From assembly GCA_001603805.1 (NCBI GenBank), contig LUZY01000005.1:1-64000 (forward strand): 64,000 bases of DNA, in the 5' to 3' direction. The first letter of the stretch is position 1. Every line of letters starts with the position of its first letter. The notes beneath the pieces are model-generated. The model searched no databases. It was not told the origin of the DNA and was given only the letters and a program-made list of their open reading frames with translations. The stretch is from Deferribacterales bacterium Deferri_01. Its GTDB lineage: Bacteria; Chrysiogenota; Deferribacteres; Deferribacterales; Geovibrionaceae. Below are positions 1 through 62,830 of this stretch, one piece after another. The translations under genes were made by a program, and so were the position numbers.

Positions 1-72
1 AAGTTAAGTCCTCCAGCGCCGATGATACTTTGCTAAGAGAGAGCATGGGAGAGTAGGTCACCGCCAGGGATT
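1..72 (+). rRNA. rrf: 5S ribosomal RNA, 3' part (partial at window edge)
   Basis: The window opens inside a 5S rRNA. The stretch from AAGTTAAG through GCGCCGATG and on to GGGAGAGTAGGTC followed by GCCAGGG is the usual 3' two-thirds of bacterial 5S. The 5' part, and presumably 23S and 16S, lie upstream of the window. The exact 3' end, around base 70-73, is inferred from family knowledge. An intrinsic terminator follows at 85. Confidence 0.9.
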
Positions 73-84
73 AAATATACGGAT

Positions 85-117
85 AGCCCGATATCGAAAG
101 ATGTCGGGCTTTCTTGT
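85..117 (+). terminator. Intrinsic terminator of the rRNA operon
   Basis: An 11-bp stem (85-95 with 100-110, one G-U pair) closes a GAAA loop and is followed by a T-rich stretch (110-119). It lies directly after the 5S 3' end. Confidence 0.8.
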
Positions 118-211
118 TTGTATTATTCTTGTGACATGCTCTCCCCACATGATGTTACCGTTTGCAGGGTAAGACAGACGTAGGTCACTGCCAGGGATTA
201 AATATACGGAA

Positions 212-246
212 AAGCCCAATATCGAAAGATGTCGGGCTTTCTTGTT
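212..246 (+). terminator. Duplicated intrinsic terminator
   Basis: This is the second copy of the 5S terminator: stem 212-223 with 228-239, GAAA loop, then T-rich sequence. It has one mismatch (A218/C233) and is probably still functional. Confidence 0.65.
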
Positions 247-274
247 TGTATTATTCTTGTGACATGCTCTCCCC

Positions 275-361
275 CGCACAAGGAGTGTGCGCTTCAGGAG
301 CGAAGCCGCATTGTATGCGGCGTAAGCGTGTGCGCAAACGGAACAGGATGTTACCGTTTGC
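275..361 (+). repeat. Dispersed three-hairpin element, copy 1
   Basis: Three hairpins in a row. H1 is CGCACA/TGTGCG (275-280, 286-291). A linker ending GCGAAG follows. H2 is GCCGCAT/ATGCGGC (305-311, 315-321). A linker containing AGCGTGT follows. H3 is GCAAACGG/CCGTTTGC (334-341, 354-361). Inside H3 a four-pair apical helix AACA/TGTT closes a GGA triloop, with A353 unpaired on the 3' side. The same architecture, with other stem sequences, occurs at 13.5, 28.6, 56.0 and 62.8 kb. Confidence 0.75.
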
Positions 362-399
362 AGGGTAAGACAAACGATAAACATGTGCTATACTTTTTT

Positions 400-13483: not shown

Positions 13484-13686
13484 TGTTCTGATAGTTCGCC
13501 GGAACCAGCGTCCTGCTGTTCCACCTCACGCGCAGCCTTCGGAGCAAAGCTCCTTGCTGCTTTCTCTTCGCTTTACGCTCCGAGGGCACATCCCTGTGCC
13601 TTTGTTCTGATAGTTCGCCGGAACCAGCGTCCTGCTGTTCCACCTCGCACGCAGCTTTTGGAGCAAAGCTCCCCGCTGCTTTCTCT
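13484..13686 (-). repeat. Dispersed hairpin element, copy 2 (two tandem units)
   Basis: An 84-base unit occurs twice (13484-13567 and 13603-13686, about 90% identical) between aroA and cmk. Read on the minus strand it has H1 GGCACA/TGTGCC (13585-13600), linker AGCGAAG, H2 GCAGC..GGAGC/GCTCC..GCTGC, then H3. H3 copies are 13501-13522 and 13620-13641: GGAAC/GTTCC stem, single-base bulge (13506, 13625), four-pair apical helix with one G-U, and triloop GGA (TCC on plus). The 16-base H1 is identical to one at 28650-28665. Confidence 0.8.
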
Positions 13687-28575: not shown

Positions 28576-28834
28576 CAAAAAACTACATCCTGTGTTTTTT
28601 GCCTACACGCTCGCGCCGAACTTCGTTCGTCTTCGCTTCGCACGGCGTCGGCACATCCCTGTGCCTCTTAATTTATCTCACAAAAAACTATATTCTGTGT
28701 TTTTTGCCTACACGCTCGCGCCGAACTTCGTTCGTCTTCGCTTCGCACGGCGTCAGCACATCCCTGTGCCTCTTAATTTATCTCACAAAAAACTATATCC
28801 TGTGTTTTTTGCCTACACACTCGCGCCGAACTTC
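28576..28834 (-). repeat. Dispersed hairpin element, copy 3 (2.5 tandem 105-base units)
   Basis: Units start at 28576, 28681 and 28786; the third stops at 28834, just inside the end region of the permease gene. On the minus strand each unit reads H1 GGCACA/TGTGCC (28650-28665), linker GCCGTGCGAAGCGAAG, H2 GAAC/GTTC, linker GCGAGCGTGTA, then H3. H3 (28576-28601, 28681-28706, 28786-28811) has an 8-bp CAAAAAAC/GTTTTTTG stem, a one-base bulge (28584), a three-pair helix and a triloop. The 105-base period is a multiple of three, which creates spurious open frames. Confidence 0.88.
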
Positions 28835-56021: not shown

Positions 56022-56469
56022 GCGCAGTTCCATGGAAGGAACTGCGCCGTGCGAAGCGAAGGACGGTTTACCCGTCTGCGAGCGTGTATGAAAAAAACAC
56101 AAGATGTAGTTTTTTTCATTGTAAAGACAGACCCTGCGCCGTGCGAAGCGAAGGCTTGCTTGGCAAGCCGCGGGCGTGTATGAGAAAAACACAGGAAGTA
56201 GTTTTTTTCATACTGCTTAAGGTTAAAGAAGTTTAAACGGTGAAAGCCGTTATTCGGCGAAAACCGAAAACATATTTTAATTTAAGCACTTAGTGCAACA
56301 CAACTCCATGGAGGGAGTTGCGCCGTGCGAAGCGAAGGCTTGCTTGGCAAGCCGCGAGCGTGTATGAGAAAAACACAGGAAGTAGTTTTTTTTATACTGC
56401 TTAAGGTCAAAGAAGTTTAAACGGTGAAAGCCGTTATTCGGCGAAAACCGAAAACATATTTTAATTTAA
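56022..56469 (+). repeat. Dispersed hairpin element, copy 4 (three units, two as a 151-base duplication)
   Basis: This fills most of the 489-base gap between pth and hppA. Unit 0 has H1 GCGCAGTTCC/GGAACTGCGC (56022-56047), core GCCGTGCGAAGCGAAG, H2 GACGG/CCGTC, and H3 with an 11-bp stem (56088-56119). Units A (56135-56285) and B (56319-56469) are about 95% identical, with H2 GGCTTGC/GCAAGCC and 13-bp H3 stems (56178-56213, 56362-56397). Unit B also has an H1, CAACTCC/GGAGTTG, which differs from unit 0 by two compensatory pairs. Each of A and B ends with two more small hairpins (ACGG/CCGT and TTCGG/CCGAA). B ends just before the hppA ribosome-binding site. Confidence 0.9.
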
Positions 56470-62750: not shown

Positions 62751-62830
62751 AGATGCGCCAGCGTCCTGCGGTGCATCTGCAACCGCTCGCCACACACGGC
62801 GCAGTCCCTTTCGTGGGACTATGGTTTTTT
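62751..62830 (-). repeat. Dispersed hairpin element, copy 5, doubling as terminator
   Basis: On the plus strand the element begins with H3: AGATGCGCC/GGTGCATCT (62751-62759, 62770-62778), bulged A62760, helix GCG/TGC and triloop TCC (GGA on the sense strand). A core related to GCGCCGTG...GCGAGCG follows, then H1 AGTCCC/GGGACT (62803-62808, 62815-62820). H1 is followed by six T (62825-62830), so it may end the moaC-nadE transcript. Confidence 0.7.

Follow-up and report, generated by a model that had tools for sequence, protein, structure and literature searches.

RNA antagonists of CsrA have been described mainly in Gammaproteobacteria, in which the sponge sRNAs CsrB/CsrC and RsmX/Y/Z carry several A(N)GGAX or CAGGA(U/A/C)G hairpins on a C-G pair (PMC7652899; PMC4005645). 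The CsrB repeats read CAGGA(U/A/C)G, the SELEX consensus is RUACARGGAUGU, and the published bridging distance of CsrA is 10–63 nt (PMC7652899). In the RsmZ stem-loops of the NMR study, A(N)GGAX is closed by C-G, below which the next pair is variable; SL3 and SL4 lack N (PMC4005645). CsrA-type GGA hairpins are also found in Escherichia coli in RrA, RrB, and RrF, which bind CsrA and lie in rrn operons after the 5S gene (PMC8144298), and two CANGGANG-type hairpins in the mRNA leaders of Campylobacter flaA and Salmonella fimAICDHF can titrate CsrA beside the protein antagonist FliW (PMC4894983). According to a survey, FliW and BarA-UvrY, the activator of such sRNAs, are almost mutually exclusive; the survey attributes FliW rather than sRNAs to groups outside the Gammaproteobacteria and leaves open whether inhibitory RNAs exist in FliW lineages (PMC4682653). 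A different class of elements, the REP/BIME sequences associated with RAYT, consists of short dispersed extragenic palindromes that form an imperfect hairpin and often lie after genes.

The repeats described here include the hairpin H3 at 28,576–28,601 of a window of 64,000 nt (the whole stretch of DNA analyzed) from Deferribacterales bacterium Deferri_01. They resemble the gammaproteobacterial sponges in their A(N)GGAX loops on C-G, among which are pentaloops lacking N as in SL3 and SL4 of RsmZ (PMC4005645). They differ from CsrB and RsmZ in forming about 45 dispersed intergenic loci of tandem units instead of a single dedicated sRNA gene, and in their fixed H1-H2-H3 module, 3′ bulge, 11-bp variable stem, FliW-encoding lineage, and lack of an Rfam match. 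They share with RrA, RrB, and RrF a location in rrn operons after 5S, but here the module also extends across tens of protein-coding operons and CsrA binding is putative. Compared with the flaA and fimAICDHF leaders, they are repeated 3′ or intercistronic modules, not one 5′ leader, with 68–69 nt instead of 21 between H1 and H3. Like REP elements, they are short extragenic palindromes present in many copies; unlike REP/BIME, they come without a RAYT, are oriented relative to genes, and have a conserved loop on a free stem, whereas the usual REP pattern is a conserved stem sequence. The units lie outside the described sRNA families, no Rfam family matching the window at the gathering threshold, and outside REP/RAYT. 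A text search of the literature on REP together with CsrA found no description of such repeats.

The H3 Hairpin

All ten hairpins of the original prediction are present (table 1), with the sense strand forward at 334 and 56 kb and reverse at 13.5, 28, and 62.8 kb, and at the predicted coordinates each of them has a single base left unpaired on its 3′ side, as read on the GGA strand. Their description as copies of one fixed fine structure is supported and much strengthened by the analysis; the copies at 28681, 28786, and 56088 are degenerate. To score the bulge genome-wide, hairpins were anchored on the H2 flank GYGAGYGTGT with the loop left unconstrained: a single extra 3′ base lies two pairs below the loop-closing pair in 148 of the 159 distinct scorable H3 hairpins, 20 further hairpins being too weak to class. 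The place of the bulge is thus fixed, as had been proposed, and the base that occupies it varies among all four (A 66, G 49, T 24, C 9).

Table 1. Repeat units and their hairpins in the 64,000-nt window
Feature	Position	Strand	Description
H1-like hairpin downstream of 5S rRNA gene	275..291	+	CGCACAAGGAGTGTGCG
H3 downstream of 5S rRNA gene (rrn operon)	334..361	+	CAAACGG-AACAGGATGTT-a-CCGTTTG
H3	13501..13522	-	GGAAC-AGCAGGACGCT-g-GTTCC; loop AGGAC
H1	13585..13600	-	GGCACAGGGATGTGCC
H3, second copy	13620..13641	-	Loop AGGAC
H3 (hairpin under study)	28576..28601	-	CAAAAAAC-ACAGGATGT-a-GTTTTTTG; loop AGGAT, C-G-closed, 3′ bulge A
Two complete 105-nt tandem H1-H2-H3 units	28576..28785	-	97% identity
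H2 region between two GGA hairpins	28602..28648	-	Flanks CGCCGTGCGAAGCGAAG ... GCGAGCGTGT, covarying inner hairpin
H1	28650..28665	-	GGCACAGGGATGTGCC; loop AGGGAT closed by C-G (CANGGANG)
Degenerate H3, second unit	28681..28706	-	Loop GAA, closing C-G lost, bulge kept
H1, second unit	28755..28770	-	AGGGAT loop
Degenerate H3, truncated third unit	28786..28811	-	GGA and bulge kept, closing C-G lost
H1	56025..56044	+	CAGTTCCATGGAAGGAACTG; loop ATGGAA, C-G-closed
Degenerate H3	56088..56119	+	Loop AAGAT (GGA to AGA), 11-bp lower stem, bulge A
H3	56178..56213	+	Loop AGGAA, bulge A, 13-bp lower stem
H1	56301..56320	+	CAACTCCATGGAGGGAGTTG; loop ATGGAG
H3	56362..56397	+	Loop AGGAA, bulge A
H3	62751..62778	-	GATGC...GCAGGACGC-t-...; loop AGGAC, second apical pair G-C (compensatory)
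Degenerate H1	62803..62820	-	Loop ACGAAA, GGA lost

GGA is kept in nearly all of the 148 of 159 anchored hairpins with A(N)GGAX geometry, which comprise AGGAX pentaloops (n = 124) and ANGGAX hexaloops (n = 24), nearly always closed by C-G. In the 124 distinct pentaloops, the successive letters of AGGA are kept in 123, 123, 121, and 123 copies, and X is T in 97, C in 18, A in 8, and G in 1; both N and X vary in the hexaloops. The loop had been read as a GGA triloop. GGA is indeed central and conserved, but the A that flanks it is paired with U in only 19 of 28 own-genome copies (A-C or A-A in most others), while the C-G pair outside that A is invariant in the same set. Because the apparent closing A-U pair is nonstandard in a third of the copies, the triloop is the center of an A(N)GGAX loop, and the conserved unit of H3 is the C-G-closed A(N)GGAX, not the GGA triloop. 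The second apical pair may be A-U, G-C, or U-A, and it is there that the A-T to G-C change at 62.8 kb, correctly described as compensatory, is located. Below the bulge, the stem sequence changes from locus to locus, as predicted, with partly conserved A/T pairs in its mid-part; its length is typically 11 bp genome-wide and does not range freely from 5 to 13 bp.

An alignment of 28 distinct own-genome copies supports this fold: 94.6% of the cells are paired, compared with 63.7 ± 1.6 for shuffles (0/500 as high), both sides have changed in 12 of 14 pairs, and the covariation score exceeds that of every shuffle. In the window, C-A(N)GGAX-G hairpins with a stem of at least 7 bp number 5, against 0.1 expected from a first-order Markov control, and the hairpin under study scores 42.4 bits (E = 6.8e-6) with the H3 covariance model.

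A Repeat Unit of Three Hairpins

H3 is the 3′ half of a dispersed repeat of about 100 nt, whose sense RNA folds as H1-H2-H3. H1 is a second A(N)GGAX hairpin, without bulge, located 68–69 nt upstream of the H3 core in most complete units. With no condition set on the loop, a search for the best hairpin upstream gave CA(N)GGAXG for 50 of the 68 distinct H1 copies; the other 18 fail this motif, and some H1 loops have lost GGA. Run alone on 28 complete 98-nt units, RNAalifold recovered all three hairpins: H1 with a 6-nt loop, H2 in the middle, and H3 with its bulge and a loop of 5 nt. In this full-unit alignment, 23 of 28 pairs have changed on both sides, none of 500 shuffles scores as high, and shifting the partners along the alignment abolishes the covariation.

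H2 is a covarying inner hairpin between conserved flanks, for which a comparison with known CsrA features gave no match and which may represent either a tertiary motif or another binding site. Within the genus, the sequence of these flanks (GCGAAGCGAAG ... GCGAGCGTGT; window 28602–28648, unit alignment columns 23–65) is strongly conserved.

The stems do not reveal which strand is structured because the bias among non-Watson–Crick pairs of the lower stems is not significant (G-U 53 vs. A-C 41, p = 0.26, strand-neutral count). A count on own copies, 26 G-U versus 12 A-C, was discarded because the scan filter favored G-U. The paired changes could also stem from a DNA-level process, for example, template-switch correction of palindromes.

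Copy Number and Distribution among Relatives

With the 28-kb unit as query, BLASTN found 54 places in the genome itself and 44 and 92 in those of two congeners; other genera gave hardly any. The H3 covariance model retrieved 86 copies in the 2.85-Mb genome (E-values up to 10), and a structural scan 89 copies at 45 loci, either single or in tandem arrays of 2–5. A unit-specific DNA pattern, run over 84,980 species in a collection that may omit near relatives, gave 10 single matches scattered over unrelated taxa, which we take as chance.

H1-H3 pairs with unrelated stems and middles are present in three genera of the same family (g2, g3, and g4) and in two genera of two other families (g7 and g16), their two loops being about 63 to 107 nt apart. 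Genera g1, g2, and g4 have the 3′ bulge; g7, g16, and most g3 copies are without it but keep GGA loops. The GGA loops are therefore more widely distributed than the bulge, a lineage feature of H3. Within the genus, bulge and triloop are not lost at random among copies. At orthologous loci of congeners, the loops are retained while the stems often differ through substitutions on both sides of a pair. At locus L061/L132, H3 has an identical stem, with differences at N of H1, X of H3, and the bulge base. Such loci also vary between congeners in where the arrays lie and in how many copies they contain.

CsrA as a Candidate Partner

The C-G-closed A(N)GGAX of H1 and H3 corresponds to the recognition element of CsrA/RsmA/RsmE. 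The conserved loop positions are those contacted by the protein in the RsmZ study, and the positions that vary here (N, X, the second pair, and the stem) are those described as tolerant for RsmE (PMC4005645). In the unit at 28 kb, the H3 loop fits the CsrB repeat CAGGAUG, and the H1 at 28650..28665 contains the core of the SELEX consensus for CsrA, ACARGGAUGU (PMC7652899). Protein recognition of H3 is plausible, and the occurrence of the same A(N)GGAX element in the second hairpin of the unit points to an RNA-binding protein.

The genome has a single csrA, in an operon with fliW (L069 1777–2486, G000:C8 at about 120 kb). Its product is 38% identical to E. coli CsrA, keeps L4 and R44, and has close solved homologs. 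CsrA probably binds the units. The H1-H3 spacing of 68–69 nt is slightly greater than the longest published bridging distance, 63 nt. The fliW-csrA pair adjoins a gene for an apparent flagellar hook-associated protein.

Genomic Context and Orientation

At 36 of 43 own-genome loci, the GGA strand runs in the same direction as the upstream gene (p = 9e-6). The corresponding figures are 33/47, 12/17, and 12/17 in genomes G002, G001, and G003, and pooling the own genome, the congeners, and g2 gives 93 co-directional versus 31 opposite cases (p = 2e-8). The bias is partial, 14 of the 47 loci of G002 being in antisense orientation. In 22 of 36 co-directional arrays, the first H3 is at most 100 nt from the stop codon and H1 thus begins near the stop; because arrays often start at stop codons, it can be argued that they do not have promoters of their own, whereas control of a dedicated promoter and of a terminator by GacA/UvrY is a mark of the CsrB/RsmZ sRNA family. 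The upstream genes (enolase, rho, recA, metG, pheT, gltX, and pth, among others) are mostly housekeeping genes of mixed function and do not form a specific regulon.

The rrn operon (L055 2250–5960, G000:C1; window 1–380) has units in its 16S–23S and 23S–5S spacers and after 5S. The window copy at 334–361 is of the after-5S kind and has a near-identical counterpart after 5S at C1:5881. From their place inside the operon, the rrn copies should be transcribed, and we infer the same for the units outside rrn operons. With two GGA hairpins per unit and 2–5 units per array at many loci, as counted on the DNA, the GGA hairpins of one array presumably share one transcript. GGA is lost in 3 of 6 rrn-operon hairpins, compared with a changed GGA letter in 3 of 124 pentaloop H3 (p = 0.001 in this post hoc comparison). 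A stretch after 5S that includes the 3′ end of 5S and a hairpin-plus-T run occurs twice (window 53–146 and 180–274).

A Possible CsrA Sponge and Alternative Explanations

On the strength of loop identity, covariation, recurrence in other genera, orientation, and gene context, we lean slightly toward a reading in which the transcribed modules bind CsrA and titration is at least part of the effect; given CsrA binding, the chance that titration is the main effect would fall just short of even. Several observations count against this reading: the stems lack a significant G-U bias, the orientation bias is partial, some H1 loops and rrn-operon hairpins have lost GGA, the H2 flanks are conserved as well, genome G018 has a similar hairpin but no csrA, many csrA-containing genomes have no detectable units and csrA does not significantly predict them, and the H1-H3 spacing slightly exceeds published bridging distances. 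The units would be co-transcribed with upstream genes, as parts of 3′ UTRs, intercistronic gaps, and rRNA operons, and in each of them H1 and H3 would both offer an A(N)GGAX site to CsrA, one dimer possibly bridging the two with H2 folded between. Tandem and dispersed units would together make up a distributed sponge, whose loading would scale with the housekeeping and rRNA transcription of its host operons, and this RNA sponge would act alongside FliW, a protein antagonist. In most copies, the 3′ bulge lies two pairs below the closing C-G, and it may separate a short openable apical helix from a rigid lower stem; the 11 bp of the latter would correspond to one A-form turn, and the former would be short as in SELEX hairpins with at most four contiguous pairs. 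In its full form, the proposal is that a distributed sponge of tens to about 100 REP-like modules couples housekeeping and ribosomal transcription to free CsrA, the module persisting across several families while everything outside the loops is replaced; this we consider possible but rather doubtful. Paired consensus CsrA sites by tens of genes and in the rRNA operons of a host with both fliW and csrA would make the inhibitory-RNA question directly testable, and CsrA binding would assign a defined protein partner to a class of intergenic repeats. With its naturally varied stems, loops, and bulges, the family would also be a library for studies of CsrA recognition.

CsrA could also be bound in cis, with little titration, the units stabilizing or processing the upstream mRNA at its 3′ end or controlling the next gene of the operon. 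The location directly after stop codons and between two co-directional operon genes (28 of 45 arrays) agrees with such a role. Hairpins in 3′ UTRs commonly block exonucleases, which also counts in its favor, and 3′-end stabilization would be sensible for upstream genes that are mostly of the housekeeping type. However, the turnover of array positions and copy numbers at orthologous loci and the lack of a specific regulon upstream are difficult to reconcile with it, and 2–5 copies per locus are less expected of a fixed cis switch than of titration or selfish spread. We regard a purely cis-acting element as unlikely.

The units might instead be selfish REP- or MITE-like DNA repeats, whose single-stranded hairpins are recognized by a transposase or the replication machinery, with a coincidental likeness to CsrA sites and a covariation produced by template-switch correction. 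Dispersed, intergenic, tandem, and genus-amplified copies are what such a repeat would give; stems without G-U bias, the conserved H2 flanks, and the MITE-like element with a CATGGATG hairpin in genome G018, in which no csrA was found, also fit. A comparison with RAYT-bound REP hairpins had been suggested by the original prediction, but no Y1_Tnp (RAYT/IS200) protein was found in this genome by a search that detects it in E. coli, so that a RAYT/IS200 transposase was rejected as partner. The strong orientation bias relative to genes and the independent conservation of A(N)GGAX, with N and X free, in two different hairpins per unit and across several genera whose stems are unrelated also speak against a selfish repeat, which we judge improbable. 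Intrinsic terminators or attenuators with an incidental GGA loop, to which the location at gene 3′ ends and the T-runs in some H3 3′ arms might point, are hardly credible: H3 stems are A+T-rich with the T-run inside the stem, arrays often continue with more units and lie between co-directional genes, units occur inside the rrn operon upstream of 23S and 5S, and neither a conserved GGA loop nor a fixed bulge would be needed.

csrA and Related Elements in the Order

The association of units with csrA was drawn from 46 genomes of the order and is phylogenetically confounded. Among genomes at least 90% complete, H1-type hairpin hits were obtained in 15 of 30 with csrA and in 1 of 5 without (p = 0.35); csrA presence is thus not a significant predictor of units across the order, and many csrA-containing genomes of the order have no detectable units.

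Two genomes contain other elements with GGA-loop hairpins. In G018, a MITE-like element with terminal inverted repeats is present in about 17 copies (L100, L103, L109, and L124) and contains two internal GGA-loop hairpins, CATGGATG and N-GGA-C; the E-value of the match, 0.023 per genome in a search of 21 genomes, allows for chance. In G014 (L075, L083, L088, and L098), an unrelated unit with a CATGGATG ... CAGGA(C/T)G pair has many copies near contig ends, which suggests a recent expansion that breaks the assembly.
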